Assembly (NCBI RefSeq): GCF_017301635.1
Contig: NZ_CP071091.1
Coordinates: 4,104,001 to 4,168,000 of the forward strand
DNA: 64,000 bases
Direction: 5' to 3'
Origin: Myxococcus landrumus
Lineage (GTDB): Bacteria > Myxococcota > Myxococcia > Myxococcales > Myxococcaceae
Made by a program: the position numbers and the translations under genes. The stretch's first letter is position 1. Each line of letters starts with the position of its first letter. Below are positions 13,280 to 17,082 of the stretch, one piece after another. The notes beneath the pieces were generated by a model, which worked only from the letters and a program-made list of their open reading frames with translations, had not been told where the DNA came from and did not search any database.

Positions 13280-13348
13280 GTGGAACCCACCTGTAGCGGC
13301 GGCAACGACATGGATCCTTCCCGCCGCCGTGTTTAGATGACGCCCCCC

Positions 13349-14563
13349 ATGAGCTACCTCGTCCTCGCGCGCAAATGGCGCCCGCAGAAGTTCGATGACA
13401 TGACCGGACAGGAGCACGTGGTCCGGACCATCGCGAACGCCATCAAGATGGACCGGGTCGCTCATGCGTACCTGTTCTGCGGCCCTCGTGGCGTGGGCAA
13501 GACGACGGCCGCCCGTCTGCTCGCCAAGGCCCTCAATTGTGAGAAGGGCCCCACGGCCACGCCTTGCGGAGAGTGCAAGGCGTGTACGGAAATCGCCGCC
13601 GGCACCAGCGTCGACGTCGCGGAGATCGACGGTGCCTCCAACAACGGCGTGGAGAACGTCCGCGAGATTCGCGAGAACGCGAAGTACCTGCCGCAGCGAG
13701 ACCGGCACAAGATCTACATCATCGACGAGGTCCACATGCTGTCGGGGGCGGCGTTCAACGCGCTGCTCAAGACGCTGGAGGAGCCACCCGGTCACGTGAA
13801 GTTCATCTTCGCGACGACCGAGGCCCACAAGCTCCCGGACACCATCCTCTCGCGTTGCCAGCGCCACAACTTCCGCCGCATCTCCGCGGCGCGGATGCTC
13901 CAGCGGCTCCAGGAGATCTGCAAGGCGGAGGGCGCGGGCATCTCGGACCGCTCCCTGTCGCTCGTCGTTCGCCAGTCCGAAGGCGGCATGCGCGACGCGC
14001 TGAGCCTGCTGGACCAGGTGCTCGCCTCGTGCGGCGCCAACCCGACGGACGAAGAAGTCGCCGAGGCCCTGGGCGCCATCGACCGCACGATGGTGCAGGA
14101 CTTCGCCGAGGCCCTCGTCCACAAGGACGCCAAGCGCATCCTGGGACGCGTGGAGGAGGTCTTCAATCGCGGCCTCGACCTGAAGCGGCTCGCCGAGGAA
14201 CTGGCGATGCAGCTGCGCCACCTCTTCGTTACCAAGACGCTGGGCGAAGCCCCCGCCGAGCTGGCCGAGTCCGAGCAGAAGGCACTCGTGGCGCTGGCCA
14301 AGGAGGCGGAGAGCGCGCAGCTCACGCGGCTCTTCGACATCGTGCACGGCTCCGTGTGGGACGTATCCCGCGCGGCCCAGCCGAGGCTCGCGCTGGAGAT
14401 GGCGCTGTTGAAGGCCATCCAGTTGTCGCCGGGCGGCTCCATTCCGGAGCTGCTCGCGCGGGTGGACCGGCTCGCGGCCGGACTGCCCCAAGGCGAAGGT
14501 TCCGCCAAGGCCAATGCTGGAGCGCCAGGAGGTCGCTCCAGCTCCACGAACTTTCGCGCCTGA
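13349..14563 (+). CDS. dnaX: DNA polymerase III gamma/tau subunit, ATPase part (gamma-like frame)
   Basis: Clamp-loader motor that opens the beta sliding clamp. The ATG at 13349 starts MSYLVLARKWRPQ, the near-universal DnaX opening; an ATG 12 nt upstream is also in frame. Walker A is GPRGVGKTT near residues 41-49, the four-Cys zinc module (C60, then CGECKAC) follows, then Walker B IIDEVHML, and the arginine finger in SRCQRHNF. Domains I-III end near residue 370, and this frame then stops at 14563 after a short unrelated tail. The expected proline-rich linker and tau-specific C-terminal domain continue in another frame (14514-16073), so full-length tau requires a +1 shift or a sequence correction. 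Confidence 0.93.
   Translation: MSYLVLARKWRPQKFDDMTGQEHVVRTIANAIKMDRVAHAYLFCGPRGVGKTTAARLLAKALNCEKGPTATPCGECKACTEIAAGTSVDVAEIDGASNNGVENVREIRENAKYLPQRDRHKIYIIDEVHMLSGAAFNALLKTLEEPPGHVKFIFATTEAHKLPDTILSRCQRHNFRRISAARMLQRLQEICKAEGAGISDRSLSLVVRQSEGGMRDALSLLDQVLASCGANPTDEEVAEALGAIDRTMVQDFAEALVHKDAKRILGRVEEVFNRGLDLKRLAEELAMQLRHLFVTKTLGEAPAELAESEQKALVALAKEAESAQLTRLFDIVHGSVWDVSRAAQPRLALEMALLKAIQLSPGGSIPELLARVDRLAAGLPQGEGSAKANAGAPGGRSSSTNFRA
14483..14491 (+). other. dnaX: Candidate +1 frameshift site in dnaX (CTG CCC CAA, run of four C)
   Basis: The upstream frame reads CTG CCC CAA GGC, while the tau frame reads CCC AAG GCG AAG after skipping one C. The downstream frame is open from 14412, so the shift must occur between 14412 and 14563. 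The CCCC at 14486-14489 is the best slippery run there. It could be programmed +1 slippage, a real mutation, or an extra C from sequencing. Confidence 0.5.
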
Positions 14564-16073
14564 GCCGCGACAGGCTCCACCACCGCCGACGCCTCGCCCC
14601 TGGGAGACTCGAAGCCATCCCGCACCGGCCACGGTGAACGTGGGCAGTGTGCCCGTCGTACCGCCGCCATCGGTCCCTGAGTCCTCGGCGGCCACGCAGG
14701 AGCCACGCCCTGTTGGCGCGACCGCTCGCCCAGCAGCCGCCGAGCCCACGCCAGGTGCTGTGCCGCCCGTCGCGCAAGAGGTCCCGCGCGACATCGCGCC
14801 CCCTCGGTACGACGATTCCGAGTACGTGCCCGAGCCCCCGGCGGACATCGAGCTGCCGCGACATGATGCGGGTGGCGCGACACAGCCGGGCGCATTCGAT
14901 GCGCGGGCCGACCACGGCGGCGCGTTCTCCGCCCCCTTCGCCAGCGCCTCGATGCAACCCGGGGCGCAGAATGGACACGGTCCAGGCCTTGCGCCTTCAC
15001 CGGGTTCAGCCATGCCTCGGAACCTCGAGAGCCCTGCCGCCCAGGCCGCTCCTGTTGCGTGGAGTCCGCCCGCGCCTTCCATGGCCGGTGTGCCTGCGTC
15101 GGGTGCTCGCCCCGCGCCGCAGTCGCGTCCCTCGGGAGGAATGGAGGCTCCGTACTCGGCGGAGAATCCGTTGCCATCGGGGCCCGTCCTGGAGGGCCTG
15201 CCCGCCTCGGCGGCTCGCCCCTTGTCGTTCCTGCGCAAGGGTCCTCCCTCCGCACCCATGGGACCGGGTCCCTCGGCGCCTGCACCCGCGCCCTCCGCAC
15301 CACCGCCCTCCGTGGGACCTTCCGGCTCACACGCCGGAGCCACTCCGCTCTCTCGCACCACCGAGCCCGCGCCCACCGTCCGCGTCATCAACGTCCGCAA
15401 GCCGGAGGCGCCAGCGGGTCCGCCCGAGCCCCCTCCCTACGACGATGAGGAGTCGCGCTTCTATCCGGAGGAGGCCTCCCCTGGCGGCTGCGCGTCCGGC
15501 GAGTGCATCCCCGAGCCCGCGGCCGCCGCCGAGCCGGAGCCCGAGCCGCCGCCGCCCCCCGTCGCGCCCACCCCGCTGCCTCGCGGGCGAGACAACCCCA
15601 ACCTGCCGCTGATCGAGCGCTGGCGCGCCGCGGTGGAGACGGTGAAGGGGACTTCGCTGCGGCATGGCACCGCGCTCGCCAACGGGCGGCTCATGTCGAT
15701 GAAGGCCGGGGAAATCATCCTCGGCTTCCTGCCCACCGCGGGCCTGCACCGCATGACGGTGAGCGCCGTCGCGGGCAAGGCCACCATCGACAAGCTCCTC
15801 GCCGAGCACTTCGGCCGTCCGGTGAAGCTGTCCTTCCAGGACGTCTCCGCCGACGACAACCGGGCCGCTCCCAGCCTCGCCGAGCGCGATGCCCACAGCC
15901 GCGCCACCCACGAGAAGAACACCGAGAGCAAGGTGCGAAACCACGCCGCGATTCGCACCGTGCTCCTGGTCCTGGGGGGCGAGGTCGAGCACATCCAGAT
16001 CTACGAGCCCGAGCGCCCCTCCGCCGCCTCGCCCTCCGACACTCCAATCGAAGCCCCGGACGACAGCGCCTGA
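14514..16073 (+). CDS. dnaX: DnaX tau-specific linker and C-terminal domain, in a +1 frame
   Basis: A 519-codon open frame overlapping the end of the DnaX ATPase frame by 50 nt. About 330 residues are a Pro/Ala/Ser-rich linker, typical of tau domain IV. The last about 140 residues are folded: LIERWRAAVETVKGTSLRHG, then a stretch ending LLAEHFGRPVKLSF. This matches the position and style of the tau C-terminal domain, which binds polymerase alpha and DnaB helicase. The ATG at 14514 has no ribosome site and sits inside the overlap, so independent initiation is unlikely. I read it as the tau half reached by frameshift, or as part of one gene with a 1-nt sequencing error. It ends 91 nt before ybaB. 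Confidence 0.75.
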   Translation: MLERQEVAPAPRTFAPEPRQAPPPPTPRPWETRSHPAPATVNVGSVPVVPPPSVPESSAATQEPRPVGATARPAAAEPTPGAVPPVAQEVPRDIAPPRYDDSEYVPEPPADIELPRHDAGGATQPGAFDARADHGGAFSAPFASASMQPGAQNGHGPGLAPSPGSAMPRNLESPAAQAAPVAWSPPAPSMAGVPASGARPAPQSRPSGGMEAPYSAENPLPSGPVLEGLPASAARPLSFLRKGPPSAPMGPGPSAPAPAPSAPPPSVGPSGSHAGATPLSRTTEPAPTVRVINVRKPEAPAGPPEPPPYDDEESRFYPEEASPGGCASGECIPEPAAAAEPEPEPPPPPVAPTPLPRGRDNPNLPLIERWRAAVETVKGTSLRHGTALANGRLMSMKAGEIILGFLPTAGLHRMTVSAVAGKATIDKLLAEHFGRPVKLSFQDVSADDNRAAPSLAERDAHSRATHEKNTESKVRNHAAIRTVLLVLGGEVEHIQIYEPERPSAASPSDTPIEAPDDSA

Positions 16074-16164
16074 CAATGGGCGCGCGCAACGGTAGGGTGC
16101 GCGCCTTACTCCACGCCCGAGCGGCTCCCACCAGGTGCCGCTCCCCCGAGTACCGAGGAAGCAC

Positions 16165-16482
16165 ATGCCCGGCGTCGACCTGAATTACTTCATCCGGCAG
16201 GCGAACAAGCTGACGGAGAAGATTGAAGAGCGGAAGCAGCAGTTGGCCGAGGAGACCGTCGAAGCGAAGTCCGGCGAGGGTCTCGTCACCGTCGTGGTCA
16301 ACGGCATCCAGGAGGTTCGCAGCGTCAAGATCGACAAGTCGGCCATCGACCCGAACGACACGTCGATGCTCGAGGACCTCATCACGGCCGCGGTGAACAA
16401 CGCCCTGGCGGCCAGCCGTCAGCACATGCAGCGCGAGCTGGCGAAAATCTCGGGCGGCATCAAGATCCCCGGCATTACCTGA
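16165..16482 (+). CDS. ybaB: YbaB/EbfC family nucleoid-associated protein
   Basis: Small DNA-binding protein of 105 residues of the YbaB/EbfC family, which forms tweezer-like dimers on DNA and is almost always encoded between dnaX and recR. The start at 16165 (MPGVDLNYFIRQANKL) has GAGGAA four nt upstream; a longer in-frame start at 16135 lacks this. The family core is visible: a helical first third, the strand VTVVVNGIQEVRSVKID, and the C-terminal amphipathic helix. recR begins 6 nt after its stop, so the two are translationally linked. Confidence 0.92.
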   Translation: MPGVDLNYFIRQANKLTEKIEERKQQLAEETVEAKSGEGLVTVVVNGIQEVRSVKIDKSAIDPNDTSMLEDLITAAVNNALAASRQHMQRELAKISGGIKIPGIT

Positions 16483-16488
16483 TACCGG

Positions 16489-17082
16489 ATGACTCCCGAT
16501 CCGCTGAACCGCCTTGTCGCCCAGCTCGCGAAGCTGCCGGGCATCGGCGAGAAGACTGCCCAGCGCCTGGCGTTCCACATCCTGCGGGCGCCCGGCGAAT
16601 ACGCCGCCGAGCTCTCGCAGGCCATCCGCGAGGTGAAGGAGAAGGTGCACCTGTGCGTGCGCTGCTTCTCCCTCACGGACACGGAGACGTGTGGCTTCTG
16701 CCGGGACCACCGCCGCGATGAGCGCGTGCTGTGCGTGGTGGAGACCTTCGCGGACCTGATGGCGCTGGAACGAACGCGCGAGTTCAAGGGCCGCTACCAC
16801 GTCCTGCACGGCGTGCTGTCGCCGCTGGAGGGCGTGGGCCCGGAGCAGCTTCGCATCAAGGAGTTGCTCGAGCGCCTCAACGACAGCCGGGTGGAGGAGC
16901 TCATCCTCGCCACCAACCCGGACATCGAGGGCGAGGCCACGGCGCTCTACCTGACGCGCCTGCTCAAGCCCATGGGGCTGCGTGTCACGCGCATCGCACA
17001 GGGCCTGCCCATGGGCGGGGACCTGGAGTTCGCGGACCAGGCCACACTCGCGAAGGCGCTGTCCGCCCGCCGCGACCTCTGA
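16489..17082 (+). CDS. recR: Recombination mediator protein RecR
   Basis: Protein of 197 residues that loads RecA onto gapped DNA with RecO and RecF. In order: helix-hairpin-helix LPGIGEKTAQRLAFHIL (residues about 16-32), the zinc module with Cys pairs CVRC and CGFC near 56-71, and the Toprim domain starting CVVETFADLMALE with NPDIEGEATALYL. The final segment RIAQGLPMGGDLEFADQAT is the family C-terminal signature. Length is normal. It is the last gene of the dnaX-ybaB-recR group and faces the convergent kinase gene. Confidence 0.96.
   Translation: MTPDPLNRLVAQLAKLPGIGEKTAQRLAFHILRAPGEYAAELSQAIREVKEKVHLCVRCFSLTDTETCGFCRDHRRDERVLCVVETFADLMALERTREFKGRYHVLHGVLSPLEGVGPEQLRIKELLERLNDSRVEELILATNPDIEGEATALYLTRLLKPMGLRVTRIAQGLPMGGDLEFADQATLAKALSARRDL

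Follow-up and report, generated by a model that had tools for sequence, protein, structure and literature searches.

We analyzed a 64,000-nucleotide stretch of the Myxococcus landrumus genome (contig NZ_CP071091.1, positions 4,104,001 to 4,168,000 of the forward strand), here called the window, which derives from a single-contig genome of 10.37 Mb. Its dnaX gene is divided between two reading frames. Based on comparison of the gene across the family, dnaX of the Myxococcaceae is very likely a programmed +1 ribosomal frameshifting gene in which standard decoding would yield gamma, a +1 shift at positions 14552 to 14555 would yield tau, and an upstream hairpin would stimulate the shift. In the window, the gene is laid out as follows.

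13349 to 14563, plus strand: 0-frame open reading frame for the gamma-type product (404 amino acids; AAA+ ATPase, lid and domain III), with an alternative in-frame ATG at 13337
14516 to 14524, plus strand: hairpin 5' arm GCTGGAGCG, with the invariant core GGRGCG at 14519 to 14524 (89/89 genes)
14528 to 14533, plus strand: Shine-Dalgarno (SD)-like loop GGAGGT, a perfect 6-nucleotide SD-like match spanning -24 to -19 relative to the slip codon
14534 to 14542, plus strand: hairpin 3' arm CGCTCCAGC, with the invariant core CGCYCC at 14534 to 14539
14540 to 14551, plus strand: 12-nucleotide spacer between hairpin core and slip codon, invariant in length (89/89) and variable in sequence except for the last C
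14552 to 14555, plus strand: putative slip site TTT.C, where a tRNA-Phe in the peptidyl (P) site can re-pair from UUU to UUC (+1)
14556 to 16073, plus strand: +1-frame continuation predicted to give tau (Pro/Ala-rich linker and C-terminal domain; 402 + 505 = 907 amino acids)
14561 to 14563, plus strand: 0-frame stop TGA, the end of gamma, 9 nucleotides past the start of the slip codon
15594 to 16040, plus strand: tau C-terminal domain of domain V type (AlphaFold model with a mean predicted local distance difference test score of 86.9; fold matches in the PDB)

Reading frames and products

The original prediction, made from the letters of the window, had the DnaX ATPase frame end at 14563 and a tau-type C-terminal frame lie open in +1 from 14412 to 16073. 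Both frames were found in these places, the former closing with the TGA listed above. The gamma frame carries the clamp-loader ATPase, lid and domain III expected of DnaX, as indicated by Pfam matches to DNA_pol3_delta2, DNAX_ATPase_lid and DNA_pol3_gamma3 and by a TIGR02397 score of 448.7 bits (cut-off 250). For NF011526, a curated gamma/tau model with a cut-off of 670 bits, the joined 907-residue product passes with 677 bits while gamma (603 bits) and the C-terminal frame (72 bits, E = 3.6e-20) stay below the cut-off when taken alone.

The modeled C-terminal domain has 5fku_E and 5fkv_E, both from E. coli DNA polymerase III complexes, as its top fold matches, with the E. coli tau domain 2aya ranking fourth; match probabilities were about 1 but E-values were modest (0.005 to 0.03). 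Pfam DnaX_C reached 14.2 bits on this domain, under its cut-off of 26.2. Domain V of E. coli tau is the part that binds polymerase alpha. Judged by the NF011526 match and by a predicted fold resembling E. coli tau domain V, the C-terminal part is a tau-type alpha-binding domain.

Frame break across the Myxococcaceae

A search with the ATPase part located dnaX in nearly every Myxococcaceae genome, and 89 loci were read. The 0 frame ends at about codon 400 (codons 392 to 406) in all 89, and of the 78 loci with a detectable C-terminal domain, 77 encode it in the +1 frame. Comparing dnaX of close relatives, as the original prediction had suggested, showed the frame break to be present and no single open frame within the family. 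Because the same layout recurs in 77/78 relatives including several single-contig genomes, the frame break is, on comparative grounds, real and not an error of assembly. The sole exception to the layout, L062 (genome G034), still carries the signal described below. Compared with its close relative L064, it lacks one C of a C run about 55 to 60 nucleotides after the slip site, and with this base missing the C-terminal domain no longer lies in +1; the loss is either a sequencing error or a recent mutation. Outside the family, nine related loci (L097, L101-L104, L106, L107, L110 and L113) encode the same C-terminal domain in a single open frame, which indicates that the split dnaX of the Myxococcaceae is derived.

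Substitutions between 60 close pairs fall mostly at third positions of the 0 frame until about 25 nucleotides before TTT, and mostly at third positions of the +1 frame from TTT on. The final 24 nucleotides before TTT show a mixed phase, which we attribute to the constraint exerted on them by the hairpin. In these pairwise comparisons the codon phase of substitutions switches at TTT.

Conserved element and proposed slip site

Lining up the genes at the 0-frame stop exposed an invariant element. In all 89 genes, and always in the 0 frame, it reads GGRGCG-NNN-GGRGGT-CGCYCC, followed by exactly 12 nucleotides and TTT.C (14519 to 14555 in the window). Codon frequencies computed from the same 89 genes showed that TTT, which occupies the site in every one of them, accounts for only 2.6% of their Phe codons. 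The codons GGT, GCG and CGC of the element are likewise fixed in 89/89, and both TTT and GGT are rare. Among the 81 unique segments, the bases directly before and directly after TTT are C without exception, and TTT is the only invariant run at the site. A P-site codon able to re-pair in the +1 frame, as known from prfB, is present in all loci. The distance from TTT to the 0-frame stop is 9 nucleotides in 65 loci, 12 in 10 and 24 in 2 (L092 and L093), and because it extends to 24 in these two the stop does not belong to the signal.

When the element pattern was searched across 257 gigabases of GTDB genomes, it matched 51 stretches, all in Myxococcaceae dnaX. Fifty of these were confirmed in frame directly behind DnaX; the remaining one starts at a contig end and adjoins a dnaX already read as L077. 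A conserved break, a shift site and a candidate stimulator, as expected of programmed frameshifting in general, recur together across species. A record titled Comamonas sp. KCTC 72670 (BNCN01000011.1) holds a Myxococcus dnaX with the element and is probably mislabelled.

Upstream hairpin

The two arms of the element can form a hairpin spanning 14516 to 14542, in which GGAGCG pairs with CGCTCC around a loop containing GGAGGT. The stem has 9 base pairs in the window (GCTGGAGCG/CGCTCCAGC) and 6 to 9 across the family. The loop is GGAGGT in 85 of the 89 genes and GGGGGT in the other 4; GGAGGT would match the anti-SD sequence CCUCC generally known for 16S rRNA. Stem pair 3 is never broken among the 81 unique segments (A-U 71, G-U 6, G-C 4, A-C 0). 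The next pair outward from the core varies between T-A (29) and C-G (41) and is paired in 72/81 segments, compared with a mean of 54.5 in shuffles, none of 5000 being as high; the second pair outward shows weaker covariation. A test of hairpin stability against synonymous recodings covered five genes. In L001, L032 and L060, only 3, 7 and 13 of 1000 recodings, respectively, folded as well as the native sequence.

No downstream stimulator was apparent, as the 60 nucleotides 3' of the site are not more stably folded than shuffled versions (mean z +0.65, 30 loci), and Rfam gave no match to the window region. A looser hairpin pattern had 7 matches genome-wide, one of them dnaX, and the reversed control gave more (17 + 8), so that a hairpin of this kind is no signal by itself.

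Sister family

The tree places a second family as sister to the Myxococcaceae. In two of its loci, L094 and L095, the C-terminal domain is again encoded in the +1 frame. They carry a stem of 7 to 8 base pairs of unrelated sequence (GGCCGCC/GGCGGCC) together with GGAGG at the same -24, a 12-nucleotide spacer and TTTC. These two different dnaX genes come from one metagenome-assembled genome (G144) with 6% contamination, probably representing two strains in one bin. In L098, L099 and L100, which belong to one genus, the site reads CGC CCT TTT CAC/CGC TGA and translation assigns the C-terminal domain to the -1 frame; by its sequence, this site fits the -1 heptamer C.CCU.UUU. L096 has the similar CCT TTC, although a one-base indel in a C run could instead make it in-frame. 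The +1 and -1 users form separate branches inside the family. What they share is a common core, apparently used for +1 at CCC/TCC TTT C in L094 and L095 and for -1 at C.CCT.TTY in L096 (less certain) and L098-L100. It seems that the direction of frameshifting was altered between close lineages while one CCCUUU core was kept.

Proposed mechanism

The following model would account for both products. Ribosomes that keep the frame would stop at the TGA at 14561 and release gamma with 404 amino acids. A fraction of ribosomes with UUU (14552 to 14554) in the P site would slip by +1, with tRNA-Phe re-pairing on UUC, and continue in the +1 frame to make the 907-residue tau. A -2 shift would lead to the same frame but would leave tRNA-Phe without pairing (ACU). 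The stimulator would be the hairpin of 6 to 9 base pairs with GGAGGU in its loop, whose core ends exactly 12 nucleotides before the slip codon. When the P site holds UUU, the 3' arm would lie 13 to 18 nucleotides upstream and just be leaving the mRNA exit channel. Refolding of the hairpin at the exit could then drag the mRNA 5'-ward by one base and move the ribosome by +1, while transient pairing of the SD-like loop with the anti-SD may help to time the refolding. Synthetic upstream hairpins stimulate +1 shifts in 70S ribosomes (PMC6321510), and in T4 gene 60 a refolding 5' stem loop has been modeled as a motor that pulls on the mRNA at the exit channel (PMC5009743). A pull of the T4 gene 60 kind, over one base, is plausible here because the 3' arm is near the exit when UUU occupies the P site. 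Conservation of the break and of the element at one fixed position, together with the switch in coding frame, is directly apparent from the comparison of genes; slippage of tRNA-Phe at UUU, its efficiency and the pulling step are inferred. The prfB gene of the same genome (L171, C1:179515-180534) has the classic GGGGGCATCTTTGACC +1 site (CUU.UGA.C) with adjoining SD sequence, so that +1 recoding is in ordinary use in this organism.

Several observations weigh against this model. The codon in the aminoacyl (A) site, CGC in 84/89 genes, is neither a stop nor rare and so offers no evident source for a ribosomal pause. The SD-like sequence ends 18 nucleotides before the slip codon, compared with the 3 nucleotides at which SD stimulation of +1 shifting is known (PMC5009743), and for this reason the loop GGAGGT does not act in the manner of prfB, where the SD lies about 3 nucleotides 5' of the P-site codon. 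Similarly, the hairpin is 9 to 12 nucleotides away, while eukaryotic tests found the effect of upstream hairpins on -1 shifting to drop as spacing rose from 2 to 5 nucleotides (PMC3639245). The hairpin of L078 is not more stable than synonymous recodings (446/1000 fold as well) and that of L092 is weakly better (89/1000 as good). Further, tree-independent covariation pairs are few (5 and 4) with a non-significant sign test, none of them contradicting the stem.

It is conceivable, at slightly less than an even chance, that a natural SD-looped hairpin refolding behind the ribosome serves as a +1 motor in a housekeeping replication gene and that a sister lineage turned the CCCUUU core into a -1 site. 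Recoding direction would then be set by the position of an upstream duplex and be evolvable within one gene.

Alternative explanations

Three explanations concern how or where the frame changes. A base extra or missing in the window's genome, put forward in the original prediction as one extra C in the assembly, has a negligible probability: single-base indels in C runs do occur, as seen in L062, but such an error is refuted by a layout shared across many genera and by genomes assembled as one contig. The same prediction preferred a programmed +1 shift at the CCCC run in CTG CCC CAA (14483 to 14491). This run lies inside the stop-free overlap of the window's own dnaX, is not conserved, and is replaced as the candidate by the conserved TTT.C. 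It sits about 65 nucleotides before TTT, and because the +1 frame opens only 38 nucleotides before TTT in L060, L061, L064, L065 and L068, past the CCCC position, a shift at CCCC would meet a stop in these relatives. Substitutions also keep the 0-frame phase from the CCCC position to 25 nucleotides before TTT, and we regard a shift there as extremely improbable. Transcriptional slippage, in which added or removed bases would let standard translation give tau, operates in Thermus dnaX and is probable for further split dnaX genes that contain A runs (PMC3711429). We consider it highly improbable here, as known cases need about 8 to 9 A or T and the site offers TTT as its only invariant run, with none of the long A/T homopolymers of the Thermus type. 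Moreover, the direction is always +1 in the Myxococcaceae and a codon-level hairpin constraint is present.

The other two accept the signal but assign it a different role. With its perfect SD match close to where the first frame ends, GGAGGT could direct re-initiation or coupled initiation, giving gamma and a separate C-terminal protein; some ATG, GTG or TTG does occur in the +1 frame within 60 nucleotides in 45/89 loci. However, in none of the 89 loci does a start codon lie at the distance expected for an SD (offset -14 to -5), no start position is conserved, the 12-nucleotide spacing to an invariant rare TTT would be left unexplained, and related lineages encode gamma and the C-terminal domain as one open frame, making two separate proteins very unlikely. 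Alternatively, the stimulus for a +1 shift at TTT.C might come from the SD-like sequence or from the nascent peptide GAPGGRS, and the hairpin might be incidental. In favor of this, GAPGGRS shows good conservation, and GGAGG(T) keeps its -24 position in two families with different stems. On the other hand, frozen synonymous sites exclude the peptide as sole driver, the 18-nucleotide spacing is wrong for the known SD effect, compensating stem pairs occur, and the sister-family genes retain a stem even though its sequence is unrelated. We judge an incidental hairpin to be unlikely and favor frameshifting at TTT.C stimulated by the hairpin.

Comparison with known systems

The best-known relative is E. 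coli dnaX (-1, A.AAA.AAG, Rfam RF00382), which shares the gene and both products, is recoded during translation where domain III ends and has an internal SD-like element upstream. An element of that type, with -1 shifting on A.AAA.AAG and a downstream stem-loop, was not found in Myxococcaceae dnaX. Here, the shift would be +1 on UUU.C, the hairpin is upstream, and the roles of the products are reversed, with frameshifting predicted to give tau and standard decoding gamma. A GeneTack survey listed 17 split dnaX genes in which tau requires recoding; all have -1 breaks, 12 of them at runs of 7 to 10 A (PMC3711429). These genes, from Chlorobium and others, share the two-frame arrangement and the need for recoding but differ from the +1 shift of the Myxococcaceae, where no run exceeds TTT. 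The original prediction had noted that a +1 event would set this gene apart from the -1 and A-run cases already known, and this view is supported; the site has no A run. A 2016 review gives -1 frameshifting, transcriptional slippage and proteolysis as routes to the dnaX products (PMC5009743); Myxococcus is not named in either publication.

Like prfB, the proposed mechanism involves a P-site tRNA slipping by +1 to a U-rich overlapping codon with an SD-like element upstream. In prfB, however, the SD is 3 nucleotides away and the product is an autoregulated factor, whereas the SD-like sequence of dnaX is 18 nucleotides away in a hairpin loop and its frameshift product would be a second subunit. 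T4 gene 60 bypassing resembles the proposed dnaX mechanism in its stem loop, which precedes the take-off codon and refolds at the mRNA exit channel, but it is a long hop. The dnaX shift would cover one base; no stop lies beside its take-off codon, and no element marking a landing site was seen. In 70S and yeast systems, +1 shifting is stimulated by synthetic hairpins placed upstream (PMC6321510, PMC3639245); these are engineered, whereas the dnaX hairpin is natural, conserved and 9 to 12 nucleotides away.

No report of +1 or myxobacterial dnaX recoding was found in the open-access literature, although an earlier report may exist in subscription journals. Recoding of dnaX is a textbook case, and the literature searched describes only -1 and transcriptional types. 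A +1 version in which frameshifting yields tau would constitute a further independent route to gamma and tau. It would also provide a natural, conserved upstream hairpin stimulating +1 shifting, a role so far associated with engineered constructs and T4 bypassing. Since the slip site and the stem, loop and spacer have clear boundaries, the mechanism is directly testable. Automatic annotation is likely to label such dnaX genes as truncated or as pseudogenes.

Downstream of dnaX, at 16135 to 17082 of the window, a YbaB/EbfC-type gene is followed by a recR-type gene, and a YbaB-type gene also lies 3' of dnaX in those related loci that were translated.
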